From Candidatus Sulfopaludibacter sp. SbA3 (lineage in GTDB: Bacteria; Acidobacteriota; Terriglobia; Bryobacterales; Bryobacteraceae), in contig CAMDED010000002.1 of NCBI GenBank assembly GCA_945893365.1, positions 62,001-126,000 on the forward strand: a stretch of DNA of 64,000 nucleotides. Direction: 5' to 3'. The notes below the pieces were generated by a model. The model had not been told where the DNA came from and did not search any database. It was given only the letters and a program-made list of their open reading frames with translations. Numbering within the stretch: position 1 is the stretch's first letter; each line of letters starts with the position of its first letter. The translations under genes were made by a program, and so were the position numbers. Shown in pieces: positions 44,881-55,295 of the stretch.

Positions 44881-45996
44881 GTGAAGATCGCGCGAATCGA
44901 AGTCATCCCGGTGCGGGTTCCGATCCGGCCCGAATTCCAGATCCGCGGCAGCCTCGGATTCCATACCGAGTCGCCGTTCGCGATTCTCCGCGTTCAAACG
45001 GATGAAGGGATCACCGGACTGGGTGAGGTGTCGGGCACGCCGGTGTGGAGCGGCGAGGATGCGGTGACCGCGTCGCATGTGATCGGCGGGTTCCTCGAGC
45101 CGGCGTTGAAGGGCGAAGATCCGCGCGATATCGAGAGGCTCACGGCCAAAATGCGCCGCGCCATTGCCGGACATCCGTTCACGAAGTCGGGCGTCGAAAT
45201 CGCGCTCTGGGACATACTGGGGAAGGCGGCGGGCCTGCCAGTGTACCGGCTGCTGGGCGGCGCGGTGCGGGAATGGGTGCCGATCAAAATGTCGGTATCT
45301 GGAGTTGCGCCGGAGCGCGCGGCGGAACTCGCGCGCTTCGCGCTCAGCCGCGGGCTGACTGCGCTCAAGGTGAAGGTGGGGATCGATCCGGAGAGCGACG
45401 TGGAACGCGTTAAGGCCGTGCGGGCCGCGGTGGGTCCGGACTTCCGCGTTGGTGTGGACGCGAACGGCGGCTGGACGCCGCGCGTCGCGATTCAGACGAT
45501 CCGGCGCCTCGTGGATACCTGCGGGATCTACTTCGCCGAACAACCGGTTGCGCCGCTTGACTTGCAGTGGATGGTGGACGTACGGCGCAATGTGTCCGTC
45601 CCTGTGATGGCCGATGAAAGCTGCTACACGCTGCAAGACGCGATGGCGCTGGTGCGCGCCGGGGCGGCGGACATTCTTTCGGTCTATGTGGGCAAGGGCG
45701 GAGGGATCGGTCCGGCGCGGAAGATAGCGGCGGTCGCGGAGGCGGCGGGTTTGACCTGCACCATCGGAAGCAACCTGGAACTGGGAATCGCCAGCGCGGC
45801 GATGACGCACCTGGCGACGGCGTCCTACGGCGTCGGCGCGGAGGAATTTCCGTGTGATATTCTCGGGCCGATCGCGTATGAGCACGATCTGCTGGCGGAG
45901 CCGATCGAGTTCCGGAGTGGGGCGGTACGAGCGCCCGGGGGGCCGGGTCTGGGAGTGTCCCTCGATGAAGACGCGTTGGCTCGCTACCGCGTGTGA
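44881..45996 (+). CDS. Muconate-lactonizing-type enolase-superfamily enzyme
   Basis: 371 residues, GTG start 7 bases after the RraA-like stop. Catalytic pattern of the MLE subgroup: ALKVKVG (Lys163, Lys165), FRVGVDANGG (Asp193), YFAEQPV (Glu220), VMADES (Asp245), and SVYVGKGGG (Lys272). Two lysines on opposite barrel faces are typical of racemases, cycloisomerases and dehydratases in this subgroup. It differs from the mandelate-racemase-type enzyme two genes upstream, so the pathway uses two distinct enolase-superfamily steps. Last gene of the 42018-45996 operon. Confidence 0.87.
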   Translation: MKIARIEVIPVRVPIRPEFQIRGSLGFHTESPFAILRVQTDEGITGLGEVSGTPVWSGEDAVTASHVIGGFLEPALKGEDPRDIERLTAKMRRAIAGHPFTKSGVEIALWDILGKAAGLPVYRLLGGAVREWVPIKMSVSGVAPERAAELARFALSRGLTALKVKVGIDPESDVERVKAVRAAVGPDFRVGVDANGGWTPRVAIQTIRRLVDTCGIYFAEQPVAPLDLQWMVDVRRNVSVPVMADESCYTLQDAMALVRAGAADILSVYVGKGGGIGPARKIAAVAEAAGLTCTIGSNLELGIASAAMTHLATASYGVGAEEFPCDILGPIAYEHDLLAEPIEFRSGAVRAPGGPGLGVSLDEDALARYRV

Positions 45997-46120
45997 GCCG
46001 GTCCATGCCGTGATAGGCGAATTCGATGAGGATGCGCTTGTTCGAGCGGGCGCCGTCCTTGCGCCAGCCGTCCGCGTTGGGATCACCGGCTGCACCCTTG
46101 CCGTAGCGGGTGATCTACGG
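45997..46120 (-). pseudogene. Short minus-strand coding remnant, family unknown
   Basis: A ~45-residue minus-strand stretch reads RYGKGAAGDPNADGWRKDGA followed by RSNKRILIEFAYHGMDRL, with a clearly protein-like pattern but no start, stop or complete domain. It directly abuts the end of the enolase-superfamily gene. I could not assign a family. The remainder of 45997-46285 shows no gene. Confidence 0.3.
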
Positions 46121-46268
46121 ATTGCCGTCTCTCGCGAAGGGCGCGCTCTGGATCACAGGTACTGCGCATTGAACTAGGTTTGTGTTTCCCTAAGTCCCGG
46201 TCCGGCTGCACTTTCATGCCGCGGAATACGCGCGGCAGAACTCGATCAGATTCTCGATCGAACACACT

Positions 46269-46292
46269 AGAGCATGCCTTAGAGCATGCCTT
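46269..46292. repeat. 12-bp tandem duplication at the edge of the DUF983 copy
   Basis: TAGAGCATGCCT occurs twice in succession immediately before and into the start of the decayed DUF983 copy. It marks the left end of the duplicated segment. Confidence 0.8.
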
Positions 46293-46560
46293 CCCTGCGC
46301 GGCGTCGTCCGGAAAGTCTGCCCGCGATGCGAGCGGGGCGCCGTTTACCGCGAAGGCCTCACGATGTACGGGCGGCGCCCGGTATGCGACCTGAAATACG
46401 AGCATGAGCAGGGCTATTCCCTGGGCGCGATGTACGTCAGCCATCATGATGGGAGTGCCGCTCGTTCTGGCGCTGGTGCTGTTCTACCGGAAGCTTACGA
46501 TCCGGCCCCTGCAAGGCTGATTCTCGCGGCCGCGCTTACTTTATTCCAAAGTTTGGGGCT
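46286..46560 (+). pseudogene. Decayed copy of the DUF983 gene (intact copy at 51544)
   Basis: Nearly identical at nucleotide level to 51544-51815 over the first ~170 bases (PSLRGVVRKVCPRCERGAVY), then frameshifted by a one-base insertion at AGCCATCATGATG (AGCTACATGATG in the intact copy), with small deletions near CCCTGCAAGG. It also lost a zinc-ribbon cysteine (CPVC reads RPVC). The membrane helices are destroyed. Confidence 0.85.
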
Positions 46561-46648
46561 TCAGGCGCGCTGGAGGTTTTCGCGGAATGAAACCGATGAC
46601 GTGAGGGAGCGTTCCCTCTGATAGCCGGGACCGCGCGATACTCTAATA

Positions 46649-48988
46649 ATGGCCCTGCCGCGGGACAACTCAACAAGTGGACGTGCTGCCCGGGTGGGCT
46701 TTCTGACGACTTTGGGCGTGAATATTGGGGATGAGTTCATCCGCGAGGGTGTTCTTCACTGCCTGGAGCAATTGGGGCTCGCTGTCGAGCCGTATTTCGT
46801 GAACAAGCATGACCGGGAGTCGTTGACCTCCATTCAGGATGTGGAGATTGAGAGCATCGGAGACAAAATTCGGAACACCGATCTCTTCATTCAAAGCGGC
46901 GCGCCGGTTTATTGGCACCATGGCTACGGAGGGCACAATTCCACTCTTGCCGAATGGCATGGCTGGGCGTGGGAAGAACGAATATTACCTCCTGGCGGCC
47001 CAGTTTTCGTCAACCTCGGCGCGGGTAGTTGCCAAGCCTGGGGTGATCAGGGAGACAGCTTCGTGGCTGATCCGGCATGCGCAGAGTTTGCGATTCGAGC
47101 CGGTCAACGGGCGGCGCTCACGACGGTGCGTGACCCGGTGGCGGCAAATATCCTCGAACGCCTTGGCGTGGCGCATGAGCGCCTGCCCTGCCCGGCCTTT
47201 CTCGCGGCCGGCCGGCGCCGGCCCGGGCAAGGCAGCGGTGATCTGATTGCGGTCAATCTCATGCCGAAAGGCGGGCATTACGACTTCAGCGTGGGGTTGG
47301 CGACGGGATCCTGGATTGTCCGGCTTCATACCCTCCTCGAAGAACTGCGACTGGTAGGGCGGATTCTCTTTCTCTGCCACGACCGGGAGGAGGAGGAATT
47401 CGCCGCTCAGTTTGCGAGCGGCGGGGAACGGGTTTTCCGGGCCGCGGCGTACCGCGACTACCTTGACATATTCCCGGTTCTCACGGCGATCTTTGCGAAC
47501 CGTGTCCATGCCGCGGTGACTGCGGCCGGGTTCGGCATTCCCGCCATGATCGCCGGGTCGGATACACGCGCCAGAATCGGGGAGTGGATCGGACTGCGCG
47601 TTTTCGAGGCGCGGACATTGGATCCGGCGGAGGCTGCCGCAGGGATGGCTGAACTTGTTCGAAATCGGGGAAGGGAGAGCGAAAGGTTACGCGTACTGCG
47701 TCAGGAGACGGTGAAGCGTTATTCGGCCCTGCTGGAGCCGGTAATCGCGAGAATGCCCCAACGGAGCCGGATTCGGCCGAAAATCAGCGCTGAACACCCG
47801 GTACGGAGGTGGCTGCGGCTCCATGGCGAAGGGTGGCGTGAGCGCATAGGACTGGAGCCGTTGTGGGTGATCGGCGAATCCGGGTTGCACCCGCCCGAAC
47901 CCTACCAAGGGGCCAAGCTTCGCTGGACCAATGGATCGGCGGAATTTTCGCTGCCGCAGGAATTGGAGCCTGTTTCGGGCAGGCTGGGATTGCAGTTGTG
48001 GGGAGTCCATCCAGCGGGTTATGAGTTTTCCGTGGATGTCAACGGCGAGCGGATTTTGACGGCGAAAACCGATGAAGGGGGAGCTTGGGAAGGAGATGTT
48101 TCGTTTCCTGAACAGCAGGTACGCAGCATCGCAATCGTCAGCAGCCAGATGCGGCCAGATGGGGACACACGGGTTCTGGGTGTAGCGCTGCGAAAATTGT
48201 GGCTTGCCGCGGCGGGCGGAAATGTGGTGGTCGTGGCTGAAAAGAAGCGATTTGACGATCACGCAGGAATGCAACCACGAAAGCCCGACCGGAAGGATTG
48301 GCGCCCTGGCGGGGAGCATGAAGAGGGTGGGTCCAGCAAAACGATTGAGAGTCATGGACGGTGCGAGTGGGGGAAGGCAACGAGGCAAGATTTCCTGGAC
48401 CAGGGCCGATGGACGCCCCAGACCGTGATGATGCGCGCCATTCAGAAATGGATTGGCGAAGCCGCGGTAGAGGTGACGGAGGCCCTCAGCATCGACAAGA
48501 ACCCGACGATGGAGCCGCTCATACGAGAGAAATGGCCCAAGGTCCGGATTCACGAGGCCGTCTATCCTGAGCAGGACGCCATGGCGCTTCGCTATCCCGA
48601 TTCGACCTTCGACCTGGTGTTCTCGCATCAGGTTCTGGAGCATATTCCCCGGCCGTGGCTGGCGGCTCAAGAGATGATCCGGGTCTTGAAACCGGGCGGA
48701 ATCGGCATTCACACGACATGTGCCTTCAATCCCCGCCACGGACCACCGCACTTCCGAGACTACTATCGGTTTCATCCCGAAGGACTTGTCGAGATTTTTG
48801 GCGGCATGGAGGTTGAGGAATGCGCTGAATGGGGCAATCGCGAAGCGATCCGGCACAATGTCTCGGTGGAGGATGGGCATGGGGAACTGGGAGGCAGAAG
48901 ATTCGGAGAGGACATCGGATCCTGGAGCGATGGGCTGTACCCGTGGCATAGCTGGATCATTTTTCAAAAGCCGGTCTCGCAACGCTAG
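46649..48988 (+). CDS. Polysaccharide pyruvyltransferase-like protein fused to a methyltransferase-like domain
   Basis: 779 residues. Residues ~15-345 are a polysaccharide pyruvyltransferase domain (VGFLTTLGVNIGDEFIREGV, SGAPVYWHHGYGG, ALTTVRDPVAANILERLG, IFANRVHAAVTAAGFGIPAM). Residues ~385-530 are an unassigned beta-rich segment (VIGESGLHPPEPY, GRLGLQLWGVHPAGYEFSV). After a charged linker, ~590-779 is methyltransferase-11-like (MALRYPDSTFDLVFSHQVLE, HIPRPWLAAQEMIRVLKPGG) but without a clear glycine-rich SAM motif I upstream. The linker (KKRFDDHAGMQPRKPDRKDW) looks non-native, so this may be two genes joined by a deletion. Likely role: decoration of a surface glycan, with the neighbouring methyltransferase and glycosyltransferase genes. 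Confidence 0.7.
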   Translation: MALPRDNSTSGRAARVGFLTTLGVNIGDEFIREGVLHCLEQLGLAVEPYFVNKHDRESLTSIQDVEIESIGDKIRNTDLFIQSGAPVYWHHGYGGHNSTLAEWHGWAWEERILPPGGPVFVNLGAGSCQAWGDQGDSFVADPACAEFAIRAGQRAALTTVRDPVAANILERLGVAHERLPCPAFLAAGRRRPGQGSGDLIAVNLMPKGGHYDFSVGLATGSWIVRLHTLLEELRLVGRILFLCHDREEEEFAAQFASGGERVFRAAAYRDYLDIFPVLTAIFANRVHAAVTAAGFGIPAMIAGSDTRARIGEWIGLRVFEARTLDPAEAAAGMAELVRNRGRESERLRVLRQETVKRYSALLEPVIARMPQRSRIRPKISAEHPVRRWLRLHGEGWRERIGLEPLWVIGESGLHPPEPYQGAKLRWTNGSAEFSLPQELEPVSGRLGLQLWGVHPAGYEFSVDVNGERILTAKTDEGGAWEGDVSFPEQQVRSIAIVSSQMRPDGDTRVLGVALRKLWLAAAGGNVVVVAEKKRFDDHAGMQPRKPDRKDWRPGGEHEEGGSSKTIESHGRCEWGKATRQDFLDQGRWTPQTVMMRAIQKWIGEAAVEVTEALSIDKNPTMEPLIREKWPKVRIHEAVYPEQDAMALRYPDSTFDLVFSHQVLEHIPRPWLAAQEMIRVLKPGGIGIHTTCAFNPRHGPPHFRDYYRFHPEGLVEIFGGMEVEECAEWGNREAIRHNVSVEDGHGELGGRRFGEDIGSWSDGLYPWHSWIIFQKPVSQR

Positions 48989-49060
48989 GGCCGGGCGAAG
49001 GCAGCGGCGATGCGGCGGCGGCCGGCGCCTTCGAACAGGCGACTGTCGAGAAGGACTCTC

Positions 49061-49816
49061 ATGACATCCTGTTCCCGCTTACGGAGTATTCGTGAACGTC
49101 TGCTGAATCGTTCCTGCGATGAGGGAGTGTTTTCCGCTTTCGCCCGGATCCTGCGGCCCGGGCAGACCGTCGTGGATGCCGGCGCGCATGTCGGCCGGTA
49201 TAGGTGTCCATTTCTCACGGCTGGTCGGGCAGGAAGGGAAGGTCTGGGCGTTGGTGCCAGTTCCCGAGAACTATTGGATGCTTCAGGCGACGCTGGCGCT
49301 GAATCGGATTGAGAACGTGACCGCGAAGCGTCTGGCGGTTTCGGCGACCGACGGGATGGCCGAGATGAATGTCTTCGAGGATCCGTTTTCTTCCTGGAGC
49401 AGTCCGGGTTCACCGGTGATGCGATCCCCGGATGGCCGGGAGGTCCGGCCACTGAAACAAGTGGCGGTTGTGACGCAGACGCTGGAACGGTTTTGCCGGG
49501 AACAATCGATCGGTCATATATCCACGGGCTGAAGATCGATGTGGAAGGTTTTGAGCAGGCGGTGCTGACAGGAGCATTGCCGCTTTTGAGGGATCATAGG
49601 ATTGGCATGATTTGCTTTGAGGTTTCCGAACTGCCATTTGCCGGTACGGGATTCAGCCCTGATATGATCCGGGAACTGCTCAAAGCGTACGGGTACGATA
49701 TTTGCTCGTTCGATTTGTGTGAAGAGCGATTCCGCCAGGTGGAGGGTGACTTCTCCCGCTTCCATGGCGATTTTTTCGCCTTCCACGCACGGCCGGAATC
49801 GAGCCGGGAGATCTGA
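49061..49816 (+). pseudogene. FkbM-family methyltransferase with two compensating frameshifts
   Basis: Three open pieces in order cover one FkbM domain: frame 1 to ~49200 (GQTVVDAGAHVG, motif I), frame 2 from ~49200 to ~49510 (HFSRLVGQEGKVWALVPVP, LERFCREQ), then frame 1 again (LKIDVEGFEQAVLTGALPLL, ICFEV). A +1 shift near 49200 and a -1 shift near 49510 restore the original frame. If these are real the gene is dead; if they are assembly errors it encodes a ~250-residue SAM-dependent methyltransferase. Confidence 0.75.
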
Positions 49817-49819
49817 CAA

Positions 49820-50701
49820 TTGACGCGAAGCCCTGTGGTTCTTTTGGTTTTCAACCGGCCGGCGCTCACGGCCAGAGTGTTCGAGAGTACCCGGCGGGCC
49901 AGGCCCGCGAAACTTCTTCTGGTGGCGGACGGGCCGCGCGACGACAAGCCCTCCGATGCGGGTCGCTGCCAGGAGGTGCGTGAGATTATCTCCCGGGTAG
50001 ACTGGCCCTGCGATGTGTACCGGGAGTTTAGTGAAATCAATCTCGGCTGCAGGAAACGGGTTTCTTCCGGTCTGGACTGGGCGTTTAGAACGGTAGACAG
50101 GGCCATTGTTTTGGAAGACGATTGCTGGCCGGCGCCGGACTTCTTTCCGTTCTGCGACGCAATGCTCGAGCGCTACGCAGACGACACGCGCATCATGCAG
50201 GTCTGTGGCAACAACCTGGCTGGCGCACGGGCGCCGATCGTCGACAGTTATTCTTTTTCGAAGATCGGGCCAATCTGGGGATGGGCGAGTTGGAGGAGGG
50301 CCTGGTCCTTTTACGACGTGGAGATGAGAAGCTGGCCGCGGGTGGTGGAAGAGAAGATCTATGAACAATTCTGGGATCTATCCCACGAGATTGATTTCCG
50401 GTTTCCTTTGTACCAGGAAGTTTACCGGGGGACAGTGAACACGTGGGATATTCAATGGGGGTATGCCAAATTGATGCAGCGTGGATTGTCGATCATTCCG
50501 GCCGAGAACCTCATTTCAAACCTAGGATTTGACGACGGCTCGGACTCGACACACACCGGGAACAAAGACCATCCCGCGGCGGCACTGCCATGCGGCGAGC
50601 TTCAATTTCCGTTGCGTCATCCAACAACAGTTGAGCGAAACAAGAGATTGGAGTTGGGTATTGACACGGTGCTGTCGGGCCGGCCCTTGTTGGGGTATTG
50701 A
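49820..50701 (+). CDS. Glycosyltransferase family 2-like protein
   Basis: 293 residues, TTG start four bases after the methyltransferase stop, with GGGAG ~12 bases upstream. The nucleotide-sugar binding GT-A fold is indicated by VVLLVFNRPALTARVFES, KLLLVADGPRDD, SGLDWAFRTVDRAIVLEDDC (EDDC, the DxD-type motif) and IGPIWGWASWRRAWSFYD, a block common in hemolytic/capsular GTs of this group. C-terminal residues LISNLGFDDGSDSTHTGN fit the acceptor side. Acceptor and sugar unknown; context suggests a cell-surface glycan. Confidence 0.85.
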   Translation: MTRSPVVLLVFNRPALTARVFESTRRARPAKLLLVADGPRDDKPSDAGRCQEVREIISRVDWPCDVYREFSEINLGCRKRVSSGLDWAFRTVDRAIVLEDDCWPAPDFFPFCDAMLERYADDTRIMQVCGNNLAGARAPIVDSYSFSKIGPIWGWASWRRAWSFYDVEMRSWPRVVEEKIYEQFWDLSHEIDFRFPLYQEVYRGTVNTWDIQWGYAKLMQRGLSIIPAENLISNLGFDDGSDSTHTGNKDHPAAALPCGELQFPLRHPTTVERNKRLELGIDTVLSGRPLLGY

Positions 50702-50902
50702 CTCCACACGTTACCGCTACGCGCGCCAAATCGCTGATGGGAAGCTCTACCCTGTGCAAGGCCGGACATGAGACGCATTGGATGGTCATGAGTCGATGGC
50801 CAACTGGAGCACCTACTCCCAGTCGGTTCGCAAGCGCAGCCTTCCCTTTGGTTAAGGGTGCATCCTTTCGTGGAGTGACGGCAAGCGCCCGGTGACCTGC
50901 CC

Positions 50903-51204
50903 ATGATGGGATTCTTAGCCCGCCGGGGACGTCGGCTGATCTGGCGGGACGGCGCGCGCCTTCCAGACCAGTTGGGAAGCGGTACATCGGCCGGTGGAAT
51001 GGTTTGTCGAGTGGGTTTGGCGCACCGCCAACTGCGCGGCGTCGAATCTATCGGCGTGGACGAAATTCATTGGGGACGTGGCTTGAAGGCGGACAACTTC
51101 TTGACTGTAATCTGCCAAATCGACGCCGGATGCCGGCGTTTGGTGGGGGTGGGACGCCGGAGTTCGCAGGCCATGCTGCGGCGGAGCCTGAAGGCAGTGG
51201 GACG
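50903..51204 (+). mobile_element. ISL3-family transposase remnant
   Basis: Frames alternate (1, 3, 1) but read in order RRLIWRD, TARAFQTSWEAVHRPVEWFV and GLAHRQLRGVESIGVDEIHWG followed by RGLKADNFLTVICQID and SLKAVG. VDEIHWGRG carries the first catalytic Asp of ISL3 DDE transposases. The element lacks its N-terminal zinc region and everything after ~51204, where it meets a dapD fragment. 50702-50902 gives no further recognisable sequence. Confidence 0.8.
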
Positions 51205-51535
51205 GGGTCGTCGAAGACGACGTACTGATCGGCGGCAACTGCGGCCTGTACGAGGGCGTGGTGGTAAAGAAGCGCACGGTACTCGGCACCGGCACGATTC
51301 TGAACCCGTCAACGCCGGTCTACGATCTGGTGCGCGGCACGGTGTACAAGGCGACGGAATCGCAGCCGCTGGTTATCCCCGAAGAAGCGGTAGTGGTTGC
51401 GGGGTCGCGCGCGGTTTCGAGCGGCCCCGGCAGGGAATGGGGCATCTCTCTACACGCCGGTAATCGTGAAATACCGCGATTCGAAGACGGACGCGCGAAT
51501 TCAGCTCGAAGACCTTTTTACGCTAGTCTGCTACG
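51205..51535 (+). pseudogene. 5'-truncated dapD remnant (tetrahydrodipicolinate N-succinyltransferase)
   Basis: Coding starts abruptly after the IS remnant: VEDDVLIGGNCGLYEGVVVK, RTVLGTGTILNPSTPVYDLV, RGTVYKATESQPLVIPEEAV, SRAVSSGPGREWGISL, then a small deletion near 51450 moves the frame to YTPVIVKYRDSKTDARIQLE. These are the left-handed beta-helix and C-terminus of DapD. The N-terminal ~160 residues are missing. The true dapD, if present, must be elsewhere. Confidence 0.85.
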
Positions 51536-51543
51536 CTAAAGCA

Positions 51544-51882
51544 GTGCCTTCCCTGCGCGGCGTCGTCCGGAAAGTCTGCCCGCGATGCGAGCGGGGGGCC
51601 GTTTACCGCAAAGGCCTCACGATGTACGAGCGGTGCCCGGTATGCGACCTGAAATACGAGCGTGAGCAGGGCTACTTCCTGGGCGCGATGTACGTCAGCT
51701 ACATGATGGGAGTGCCGCTCGTCCTGGCGCTGGTGCTGTTCTACTGGAAGCTCACGAACTGGCCCCTGCAACGGCTGATTCTCGCGGCCGCGGTTACTTT
51801 TCTGCTTTTCGTTCCGGCAATTATCAAGTACTCGCGCATCGCGTGGCTGCATATCGATCGAACGTTCGACCCGGACAAATAA
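51544..51882 (+). CDS. DUF983 family membrane protein
   Basis: 112 residues from GTG 51544. The zinc ribbon CPRCERGAVY...CPVCDLKYE is complete, followed by two membrane helices (GVPLVLALVLFYW, LILAAAVTFLLFVPAIIKYSR) and the conserved WLHIDRTFDP tail. DUF983 proteins are small inner-membrane proteins of unknown function, often near cytochrome or lipid genes. It follows the dapD remnant and precedes trpC by 23 bases, so it may be co-transcribed with the trp operon. A decayed duplicate lies 5.2 kb upstream. Confidence 0.88.
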   Translation: MPSLRGVVRKVCPRCERGAVYRKGLTMYERCPVCDLKYEREQGYFLGAMYVSYMMGVPLVLALVLFYWKLTNWPLQRLILAAAVTFLLFVPAIIKYSRIAWLHIDRTFDPDK

Positions 51883-51905: not shown

Positions 51906-52697
51906 TTGACCCCCACCGTTCCAGACATATTGGCCCGTATTGCGGAACACAAGCGGCGCGAACTCGAGCACCCGCATGTTTCCCGCGCCGTCCTTGAGCG
52001 GCGCGCCTTGGACCATGCCGGTTCACGGCGCGACTTTCGCGCGGGGCTTTCTTCTCATTCCCCGGCGATCATCGCGGAGATCAAGAAAGCCTCTCCCAGC
52101 AGGGGACTTCTTGCAGCCGACTTTCACCCCGTGCGTCTGGCCGAGGCCTACGCGCGCGGCGGCGCGGCCGCGCTCTCGGTTCTCACCGACGAGCGGTTTT
52201 TCCAAGGCAGCTTGCACGACTTGCGGGCGGCCCGAGAAGCAGTGGACTTGCCGGTCCTGCGCAAGGATTTTACGATTGACGAGTATCACGTGGTCGAAGC
52301 GGCCGCCAATGACTCGGACGCCATTCTGCTGATCGCCGCGCTGCTCGATACCCGCAGGTTGCGCGCCTTACGCGAATTCGCGCAAACGCTCGGCATGGCC
52401 GCGCTGGTCGAGGTGCACGATGGCGATGAACTCGAATCGGCGCTCGACTCCGGCGCGGAGATCGCCGGCGTGAACAACCGGAATCTGCGGACCTTCGAAG
52501 TCTCGCTGCGGACGTCGCTCGACCTCGCGGCGCGTATTCCGGACAATGTCTTGAAGGTCGCTGAGAGCGGCATTCACGGCCCTTCCGATGTGAAGCGGCT
52601 CATGGACGCGGGCTACACGGCGTTTCTTGTCGGCGAACATTTGATGCTGTCTCCGGACCCCGCCGCCGCCCTTGCGGAGCTGGCGGGCGCACAATGA
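51906..52697 (+). CDS. trpC: Indole-3-glycerol phosphate synthase
   Basis: 263 residues; TTG at 51906 is the best start (TPTVPDILARIAEHKRREL), as a longer open frame overlaps the DUF983 gene. TIM-barrel signatures are present: IIAEIKKASPSRGLL (catalytic Lys), LSVLTDERFFQGSL, LPVLRKDFTIDEYHV, GVNNRNLRTFEVSL and VAESGIHGPSDVKRL. It converts CdRP to indole-3-glycerol phosphate in tryptophan synthesis. First gene of trpCFBA-aroQ-aroF-tyrA; trpE, trpG and trpD are not in the window. Confidence 0.96.
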   Translation: MTPTVPDILARIAEHKRRELEHPHVSRAVLERRALDHAGSRRDFRAGLSSHSPAIIAEIKKASPSRGLLAADFHPVRLAEAYARGGAAALSVLTDERFFQGSLHDLRAAREAVDLPVLRKDFTIDEYHVVEAAANDSDAILLIAALLDTRRLRALREFAQTLGMAALVEVHDGDELESALDSGAEIAGVNNRNLRTFEVSLRTSLDLAARIPDNVLKVAESGIHGPSDVKRLMDAGYTAFLVGEHLMLSPDPAAALAELAGAQ

Positions 52698-53290
52698 TGG
52701 TGAAGATTTGCGGGGTCACCAATCGAGACGACGCCATGGCGGCGATTGAAGGCGGCGCGTCGGCGTTGGGATTCAATTTTTATCGCAAGAGCCCACGATA
52801 CGTGAGTGAGGGGACCGCGGCGGAGATCGTGAGCGCATTGCCCGCGGGCATTTGCAAAGTGGGAGTATTCGTGAACGAATCGGCCGGCCGCGTGTCGGAT
52901 TCAATACGCCGCGCCGGGCTCGACGTGGCGCAACTTCACGGCGACGTCGGCTATCCGCAAGGCATTCGCGCGTGGCAGGCCGTGAGCGCGAGGCCCGGTT
53001 TTCGCGTCGACTCGCTCGAAACGCTACCGGTCGAAGCGGTATTGCTCGACACGCCGTCGGAGGACTTGTTTGGCGGCACCGGAGAGACCTTCGATTGGTC
53101 GATCGCCGCCGGCTCTCCGAAGCGGATTATCATCGCGGGAGGTCTTGACGCGTTCAACGTGCGGCTCGCCATCGAGCGGGCGCGCCCTTGGGGCGTGGAC
53201 GTCTGCTCGCGGATTGAAAGCGCTCCCGGCCGCAAGGACCGCGCCAGGATGGCCGCGTTCCTGAAGGCCGCGCTGGCGGAAAATATATGA
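52694..53290 (+). CDS. trpF: Phosphoribosylanthranilate isomerase
   Basis: 198 residues; ATGATG start overlapping the trpC stop (ATGA). [20 protein letters not shown] with the catalytic Cys, [42 protein letters not shown] (catalytic Asp in LLD) and [11 protein letters not shown] are all characteristic. It isomerises PRA to CdRP, the step before TrpC. Translationally coupled on both sides. Confidence 0.96.
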
Positions 53291-54483
53291 CGACTTCGCA
53301 ACCCGACGCGGGCGGGCATTTCGGTCCCTACGGTGGGCGCTATGTCCCCGAAGTGCTGATGGCTCCGCTCGAAGAATTGGAACAGACATACCTCGAAGCC
53401 CGGCTCGACCCGGCTTTTCAGGCCGAGCTCGACCAGCTCCTGCACACGTACGCCGGACGGCCCACGCCGCTCTACTACGCACGGCGGTTAAGCGAGCAAC
53501 TTGGCGGCGCGAAGCTTTACATTAAGCGCGAAGACCTGCTGCATACGGGCGCGCACAAGATCAACAACTGCCTGGGACAGGCCCTGCTCGCGCGGCGCAT
53601 GGGCAAGCGGCGCATCATCGCGGAAACCGGCGCGGGGCAGCACGGGGTGGCCACCGCGACGGTCTGCGCGCTCTTCGGACTCGAATGCGTCGTCTACATG
53701 GGCGAGGAAGACATGCGCCGCCAGCGGCTCAATGTGTTCCGCATGCGGCTGCTGGGCGCGAAGGTAGTGGGCGTTTCAAACGGGAGCCGGACATTAAAGG
53801 ACGCCATCAGCGAGGCCATGCGCGACTGGGTGACCAACGTCGGGACTACGCATTACCTGCTCGGCTCGGCGCTCGGCTCGCATCCGTATCCTCTGATGGT
53901 TCGCGACTTTCACAAAGTGATCGGCGAGGAAGCGCGGCGGCAGATTCAGGAGGTGGAAGGACGTCTGCCGGATACGATTTTCGCGTGCGTGGGCGGCGGC
54001 AGCAATGCGATCGGCATTTTCCACGCGTTCCTTGACGACGCCGCGGTGAAACTCGTGGGTGTCGAGGCCGGCGGTTCCGGAACGGCTCTCGGACAACATG
54101 CGGCGCGATTTTCGGGCGGGTCGCCGGGCGTGCTGCAGGGCGCGCGCAGCTACCTGCTGCAGGATGAGAACGGCCAGATTTCGCTCACGCACTCCGTCTC
54201 GGCGGGCCTCGATTACGCGCTTGTCGGACCGGAACACGCCTGGCTGCACGATAACGGCCGGGCGGAATATGTGTCGATCGCCGACCGTGAGGCGCTCGAT
54301 GCGGCGAGGCAACTCTCGCGGACGGAGGGCATCATCCCGGCGCTCGAATCCGCGCACGCCGTCGCCGAGGCCGTGAAGCGAGCCCCCGAGGCGCGCGGTC
54401 GGGTGTTCCTCGTAAATCTCTCGGGACGCGGCGATAAAGATATCGATATCTATCGCGAGCAGATGGGAGATCTGGAAGACTAA
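53287..54483 (+). CDS. trpB: Tryptophan synthase beta chain
   Basis: 398 residues, ATG overlapping the trpF stop. [36 protein letters not shown] (PLP lysine in GAHKINN), [34 protein letters not shown] (phosphate loop GGGSN) and [16 protein letters not shown] are diagnostic. It condenses indole with serine in an alpha2-beta2 complex with TrpA. Stop TAA shares one base with the trpA ATG. Confidence 0.97.
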
Positions 54484-55295
54484 TGCCGGGCACTCGAATA
54501 TCGCGAATGTTCGCGGACTTGAAGCGCGATGGGCGGAAGGCATTGATCGCCTACATCACGGTGGGCGATCCATCTCCGGACCGCACGCCGGCCCTCGTCG
54601 AAGCGCTTGAGCGCGGCGGCGCGGATCTCATCGAGCTCGGCGTGCCGTTTTCAGACCCCATCGCGGACGGCCCCGTTATTCAGCGCGCCGGGGAGCGCGC
54701 GCTCGCGGCGGGTACTACATTGCGCGGAGTGCTCGCGATCGCCGCCGAAATTCGAGAACGTTCTCAGATTCCGCTGCTGCTGTTCACCTACCTCAATCCC
54801 GTGGTGCGATATGGAGTGGAAGAACTGGCGCGCGACGCGGCGGCCGCGGGTATCGATGGTTGTCTGCTCACCGATGCAAGCGTGGAAGAGGCCGGCGAGT
54901 ACGTGGATGTCATGCGCCGCCATGCCCTCGACACCGTTTTCCTCGCCGCCCCGACCAGCACCGAAAGGCGTCTGAAGCTGATCGCGAAGTACTCGACGGG
55001 CTTCGTCTATCTTGTCTCGCGGACCGGCGTGACGGGCGAAAGAGAATCGCTCTCCGCCTCGGCCGTACCGCTCATCAAAGCCGTGCGCAAGGTTACGGAC
55101 TTGCCGCTGGCGGTTGGATTCGGCGTATCGAAGAAGGAACACGTCTCCGAACTCGGACGCGAAGCGGAGGCGGTCGTGGTGGGCAGCGCGATCGTGCGTC
55201 TGATCGAGGGGAATGCGGGTAACGCGTCGCTCGAACTGCAACTCGAGTCGTTCGTACGGGAATTGAAGAGCGGATTTGGAGCCGGACGCACATGA
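54483..55295 (+). CDS. trpA: Tryptophan synthase alpha chain
   Basis: 270 residues. KALIAYITVGDPSPDRTPAL, ADLIELGVPFSDPIADGPVI (catalytic Glu in ELG and Asp in PFSDP), GCLLTDASVEEAGEY, FVYLVSRTGVTG and VGFGVSKKEHV are typical. It cleaves indole-3-glycerol phosphate to indole, which passes to TrpB. Start overlaps trpB stop by one base (TAATG); its end overlaps the chorismate mutase start (ATGA). Confidence 0.97.
   Translation: MPGTRISRMFADLKRDGRKALIAYITVGDPSPDRTPALVEALERGGADLIELGVPFSDPIADGPVIQRAGERALAAGTTLRGVLAIAAEIRERSQIPLLLFTYLNPVVRYGVEELARDAAAAGIDGCLLTDASVEEAGEYVDVMRRHALDTVFLAAPTSTERRLKLIAKYSTGFVYLVSRTGVTGERESLSASAVPLIKAVRKVTDLPLAVGFGVSKKEHVSELGREAEAVVVGSAIVRLIEGNAGNASLELQLESFVRELKSGFGAGRT

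Follow-up and report, generated by a model that had tools for sequence, protein, structure and literature searches.

Insertion with long target duplication (Nobusato et al. 2000) has been described for restriction genes of Helicobacter and is cited in passages of PMC1643837, PMC3154945, PMC3031569 and PMC11708052; according to the passage in PMC1643837, a restriction-modification gene is frequent in such inserts, not obligatory. DNA duplication associated with inversion (Furuta et al. 2011) is named in a passage of PMC8963470, and an excerpt of PMC11708052 gives a laboratory parallel, the Dup-IS-Dup structure of P. fluorescens SBW25, in which a whole 1.3-kb insertion sequence (IS), IS481, lies between 60-kb copies. 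Bryobacterales were unmentioned among the matches listed in the literature on genome rearrangement. Here we analyze a locus from a member of this order, Candidatus Sulfopaludibacter sp. SbA3, in which a dead and a live copy of a DUF983 gene form a direct repeat around glycan-modification genes. The window is the whole stretch of 64,000 nucleotides (nt) that was analyzed, bases 62001-126000 of contig C2 (147 kb) in genome G000, a draft of 7.88 Mb in 299 contigs with 96.65% completeness.

Sequence comparison leads us to regard a history of two accidents as probable: a foreign insertion that duplicated ~590 bp, and then an inversion through the left duplicate. These are known kinds of genome accident, and the case is well preserved. 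As in insertion with long target duplication, so far as the cited passages describe it, genes have been inserted and are accompanied by a long direct repeat that is single in a related genome. In contrast to the Helicobacter insertions, the inserted DNA consists of glycan genes and an IS scrap without restriction-modification genes: among the open reading frames (ORFs) of the insert, Pfam and NCBIfam identified no restriction gene, the matches being to pyruvyl transferase, a small-molecule-type methyltransferase and FkbM. A further difference is that an inversion would here have parted the left duplicate from dapD, and that the spare halves have decayed. Dup-IS-Dup, as excerpted, likewise has new DNA between two direct copies and no usual short target-site duplication, but the new DNA here, 4.67 kb long, is made up of foreign genes and contains no more than a scrap of a transposase, and the copies are ~0.59 kb. 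The likeness to DNA duplication associated with inversion, judged from the passage that names it, lies in the inversion, the duplicated segment and the gene broken at a breakpoint.

The DUF983 repeat and the dapD tail

The original prediction had placed a direct repeat of ~270 bp, dead on the left and live on the right, at 46.3 and 51.5 kb. We located it at 46280-46542 and 51537-51800 as a single direct-repeat alignment with 3 single-base gaps. Its three ungapped blocks were 95, 93 and 96% identical in the repeat search (93-94% in the genome searches). The match to the second copy was far above chance (E = 1.1e-107), and the genome search returned no third copy at E <= 0.001. The assignment of dead and live copies was also confirmed. 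The right copy (51544..51882, plus strand) has a GTG start, lies upstream of trpC and is open, encoding a protein of 111 amino acids (aa) that matched PF06170 (6.9e-07; 29.9 bits vs a gathering score of 22.6). It is 89% identical at the protein level to its counterpart in G002, a sister genome of the same genus (73% complete) and the nearest relative with DUF983, whose copy scored 31.2 bits. The ORF of the left copy (46280..46542, plus strand) had no Pfam match at 0.01.

The left copy comprises the 5′ part only, since the similarity ends after 46542 and the 3′ end is missing, and it carries two frameshifting indels. Two of the three alignment gaps represent one inserted and one deleted base private to this copy, and the third is an additional base that the live copy has at its start codon. 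When G002 was used as the outgroup, 12 substitutions were private to the left copy and 1 to the right copy (p = 0.003), and the private changes of the dead copy were distributed 5/4/3 over the three codon positions. This distribution is expected from decay in place and not from import of a diverged working allele of DUF983, a candidate that was rejected on the neutral codon-position spread. On this three-way comparison, the left copy is a decaying duplicate.

The figure of ~270 bp holds for the DUF983 part of the repeat; the total is ~590 bp when a dapD tail is included, the left copy of which lies on a second contig of G000, C45 (49 kb; its stretch coordinates are given as L031). The tail in the window (51208..51538, plus strand) is a dapD 3′ end with its downstream spacer, a frameshifted duplicate that corresponds to codons 173-277 of 278 in two frames. 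It matched C45:41261-41590 at 94% and G002 at 87%. The dapD on C45 is intact, stands in the order lysC-dapB-dapA-dapD (names from NCBIfam) and is the sole full-length dapD found in the genome.

In G002 the same genes lie on contig C88 (L028), in the order lysC-dapB-dapA-dapD, 377 bp, DUF983, trpC and trpF, with one DUF983 and no insert. The trp genes are kept in the right flank of the window as trpC-trpF-trpB-trpA (51930..55295, plus strand; ORFs named from NCBIfam, with the trpF models below cut-offs). Of these, trpC and trpF are 86 and 78% identical to G002 in conserved order, up to the point where the G002 contig ends. The comparison suggests that dapD very probably stood beside DUF983-trp in the common ancestor of G002 and the source genome, and that the full gene has very probably since been cut away from DUF983-trp in the source genome. 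The relative with an empty site and one DUF983 that the original prediction had called for was found in G002:C88, a genome that is 73% complete and a site whose spacer differs. Its claim of a past insertion that duplicated one flank was thereby supported: one DUF983 lies between dapD and trpC, and the insert is absent. The third genome of the genus, G001 (86% complete), had no DUF983, trpC or dapD match and was uninformative. In the source genome a long target duplication lies at both insert edges, the DUF983 half being adjacent in the window and the dapD half being read partly through C45 and the inversion. The DNA between the copies, ~4.67 kb at 46543..51207, differs from its flanks in guanine-plus-cytosine (GC) content and is absent from G002.

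Two DUF983 genes, both open and 52-53% identical to the window gene, were also seen in G005, of the same family, on contigs C95 and C448 (L032, L033). Neither trpC nor dapD was present in the stretches examined there, and both contigs are short.

Reciprocal junctions on two contigs

C45 is similar to the window as far as window 51538 (L031 11591), and the dead DUF983 is similar to the live locus from 51537 onwards. Read from these alignments, what was once a single left copy is now split into two complementary pieces, the dapD end on C45 and the dead DUF983 in the window. Past this point on C45, homology to a creatininase-family gene begins at L031 11592 or 11595, depending on the reference gene (minus strand, PF02633). 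The C45 creatininase is itself frameshifted and stops early, at base 716 of the gene of intact relatives. On the other side of the dead DUF983, the window contains a piece of 74 nt (46192..46265, minus strand) that reads CSIENLIEFCRAY... before a frame change and aligns to bases 720-791 of the intact genes of contig C116 and genome G028; by this alignment it is the end missing from the truncated C45 gene. The tail scored 25 and 23 at the DNA level and 44 and 45 at the protein level against the two intact relatives, and none of the 1336 other window tiles on both strands reached its DNA or protein scores.

The junction between the creatininase 3′ end and the dead DUF983 (46266..46291), as read from the sequence, contains a 12-bp tandem repeat (46268-46279 and 46280-46291). 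Moving away from dapD, C45 crosses the creatininase backwards; moving away from the dead DUF983, the window crosses it forwards. If both contigs belong to one chromosome, as we infer for C2 and C45, these opposite orientations make the junctions a pair produced by inversion, not by deletion. The two junctions are reciprocal, with complementary halves of dapD/DUF983 and of creatininase in inversion orientation, and an inversion would explain the present place of the left dapD-tail copy on C45. CTAG occurs at both junctions and CTAA at the live locus, and the shared CTAG may reflect one short staggered break. Short repeats at the ends are mentioned for confirmed spontaneous rearrangements of Salmonella in a passage of PMC3411829.

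An artefact of assembly or binning has in its favor that the draft is in 299 contigs and that the argument needs two of them. However, both junctions are interior to their contigs (C2, 147 kb; C45, 49 kb), and chimeric joins are unlikely to supply pieces of two genes that complement each other to a few bases, or copies with ~6% divergence. We regard such an artefact as extremely unlikely.

C116 (L077 7357-8172) carries an intact second creatininase-family gene of G000, which was 84% identical over the 95 residues compared and may explain why a broken C45 copy could be tolerated. C116 and C45 share a second stretch (67%) on the other side of C45.

Order of events and alternative explanations

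In the favored history of two accidents, ~4.67 kb of foreign DNA with glycan genes and an ISL3 scrap would first have been joined illegitimately at the dapD-DUF983 junction of a lysC-dapB-dapA-dapD-DUF983-trp block. The duplicated ~590 bp would consist of the dapD 3′ end and the DUF983 5′ part, leaving dapD whole on the left and DUF983-trp whole on the right. The foreign glycan genes would thus have entered the biosynthetic block without destroying it, because each cut gene would still have had one functional copy after the duplication. One end of the inversion would then have fallen past the dapD stop codon, before the left DUF983, and the other within the creatininase 3′ end. On C45, dapD would have come to lie beside the creatininase body, and in the window the dead DUF983 beside the creatininase tail. 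We read the inversion as a separate, later step because the left copy already existed when it was cut. As in insertion with long target duplication, the mechanism may have been either template switching or the repair of a break, and the data fit both. We infer this mechanism, the order of events and the arrival of the insert with the duplication from the arrangement of the pieces. The divergence of the two halves was similar, with 15 differences in 256 positions between the dead and live DUF983 and 20 in 313 between the dapD fragment and C45 (p = 0.86, three-way differences included). This equality fits a single duplication of ~590 bp. This natural locus still shows, legibly and to within a few bases, the broken ends of both the insertion-duplication and the inversion.

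The right edge of the insert bears on how it was joined. An internal scrap of an ISL3-type transposase gene with both ends missing (50866..51216, plus strand) was recognized by its identity to the transposases of relatives, being matched in 4 of the 60 relatives whose DNA was searched. Its counterpart in G032 is an open transposase frame of 441 aa with 87% identity (PF01610 DDE_Tnp_ISL3 in the G032 protein, 3e-69); the identity was 81% in G021 and 71% in G011. The right joint falls inside both the transposase gene and dapD, and the two homologies overlap by 7-9 bases, which hints at microhomology at the joint. The scrap at this edge could also suggest an ordinary IS or composite-transposon insertion at DUF983. 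However, only an internal piece of the transposase is present, and neither the 25 longest of the 70 inverted pairs in 46500-51260 nor the 11 pairs of the repeat search contained one that brackets the insert edges. Moreover, ISL3 elements duplicate ~8 bp of target, and a duplication of ~590 bp is far above the usual range for IS elements. We attach almost no weight to this explanation.

The inversion itself might have made the duplication in a single event, with the dead DUF983 and the insert arriving separately. Furuta and colleagues reportedly took a duplicated segment at both inversion breakpoints as the defining feature of such events, and dapD 3′ ends do lie on both sides of the rearrangement, one on C45 and one in the window. 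Unlike in that process, however, the dapD tail adjoins only the breakpoint on C45; in the window it lies behind the insert, ~4.9 kb away from the breakpoint. The duplicate is thus not at both breakpoints, and the direct repeat and the insert would have to have come first. In addition, a dead DUF983 that lies at the junction and starts where the C45 copy stops would have to be a coincidence. Inversion-duplication events are named for Helicobacter and Thermus in the passage of PMC8963470; at this locus, we consider a single event of this type very unlikely.

Another explanation is integration through homology, of the Campbell type or homology-facilitated, in which a circular or linear foreign molecule carried a dapD-DUF983 fragment from a relative and the inversion came afterwards. 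The geometry of the repeat matches integration by a single crossover. Furthermore, the dapD fragment and C45 have 17 polarised differences, of which 14 were at third positions, as between working alleles. The fragment's own changes were at third positions in 6 of 9 cases, above the expectation for pure decay (p = 0.04, uncorrected), which favors integration by homology. In contrast, the 5/4/3 changes of the dead DUF983 indicate decay in place, both ends of the fragment lie inside genes, so that the donor would already have been an illegitimate chimera, and no donor was found among the 60 relatives searched by DNA or the 296 other genomes sampled from the phylum and searched by protein. Integration through homology therefore seems unlikely. 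The original prediction had offered acquisition by homologous recombination as one interpretation; the codon spread in the dead copy speaks against it, while the third positions of the dapD fragment leave room for it.

Several observations weigh against a duplicating insertion followed by an inversion. The creatininase tail is only 74 nt long and frameshifted. It scored 25, whereas the highest of the 1336 tiles reached 22 (C116 gene) and 500 mononucleotide shuffles per reference gave maxima of 20 and 21. The two junctions lie on separate contigs, C2 and C45, of a 299-contig draft, and no single contig spans the inversion. None of the genomes examined had an intact ancestral creatininase site: G028 and C116 had no DNA match to the left flank of the window, and a DNA search of the 60 relatives with 45985-46290 gave only short, weak matches elsewhere. 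The order dapD-DUF983-trpC was seen in G002 alone, none of the 28 other trpC loci having an adjacent dapD or DUF983; these 28 were fetched from the 36 other genomes with a trpC match, and the upstream view was <= ~1.5 kb, shorter for some and 126 bases for one. Between dapD and DUF983 there are 377 bp in G002 and ~17 bp in the window. Together with the third-position excess of the dapD fragment, C45 had 8 third-position changes in 107 positions vs 1 in 86 for the live DUF983 (p = 0.045, uncorrected). The third-position excess is compatible with one dapD allele having been imported with the insert.

A variant of the two-accident history is that the insertion-duplication and the inversion made up one linked repair episode. 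In this variant, one break at dapD-DUF983 would have taken in foreign DNA, recopied ~590 bp and been joined to a second break in the creatininase gene. We consider it quite unlikely. If true, insertion with long target duplication would also be a source of inversions and, independently of restriction genes, a general route of entry for surface-glycan genes in the wider bacteria.

Overall, the original interpretation was partly supported, being right in outline but incomplete, as the dapD tail, the ISL3 piece and the inversion had been missed.

The insert and its flanks

The insert appears foreign to the family as sampled. Its first 4.2 kb are single-copy in the source genome and, when searched against the 60 relatives with the 4 best candidates scored per genome, gave one 59-bp match (G029) and nothing longer. 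At the same depth, no relative with the gene cluster and only one DUF983 was encountered, the case that had been proposed as a refutation. The GC content of the insert is 0.596, vs 0.62 in the 10 kb to its left and 0.63 in the 10 kb to its right. Because 28 of 238 stretches of the same size, some of which overlap the insert, have GC content as low, GC alone is weak evidence.

The insert had been described as five glycan and mobile-element remnants. This description held for the FkbM-family gene, the ISL3 piece and the dapD 3′ end, which are broken, and not for the 779-aa and 293-aa ORFs, which are open. The 779-aa ORF (46649..48988, plus strand) contains polysaccharide pyruvyl transferase and methyltransferase domains (PF04230, 8.3e-10; PF08241, 2.3e-13). 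Both domains are in one frame, with an odd charged linker at approximately residues 540-600, and the ORF may be a fusion of two genes. Among the 296 other phylum genomes, one matched it in part at E <= 1e-15, in the methyltransferase region. The FkbM-family methyltransferase gene (49061..49816, plus strand) is broken by two frame changes, and its PF05050 match is split over two frames, with one of the two parts under the gathering score. The 293-aa ORF (49820..50701, plus strand) is glycosyltransferase-like, with a sub-threshold Pfam GNT-I match and no NCBIfam match. Its relatives occurred in 9 of the 296 other phylum genomes at E <= 1e-15, with 42-47% identity and one at 30%.

The decaying duplicates provide a built-in neutral yardstick for these ORFs. 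By our own count, they contain 4 indels in 577 bases. At this rate, an ORF of 2337 bases would stay open by chance with a probability of ~1e-7 (0.012 with the rate at its lower 95% bound). Provided that insert and duplication arrived together, as our account of the arrival time has it, the long ORF appears to have been kept by selection. The same calculation for the glycosyltransferase ORF gave 0.002 (0.19 at the lower bound), and selection on this shorter ORF is uncertain.

In the left flank, a short coding-looking remnant with no Pfam match (46000-46190, minus strand, GDPNADGWRKDGARSNKRILIEF...) lies between an MR_MLE enolase gene and the creatininase tail. For a 41-aa piece read on that strand at approximately 46000-46130, Pfam likewise gave no match at 0.1. 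The 377 bp that separate dapD from DUF983 in G002 (L028 11550-11926) are absent from the source genome and are crossed by a 155-aa ORF with a phage-portal match at sub-threshold level.

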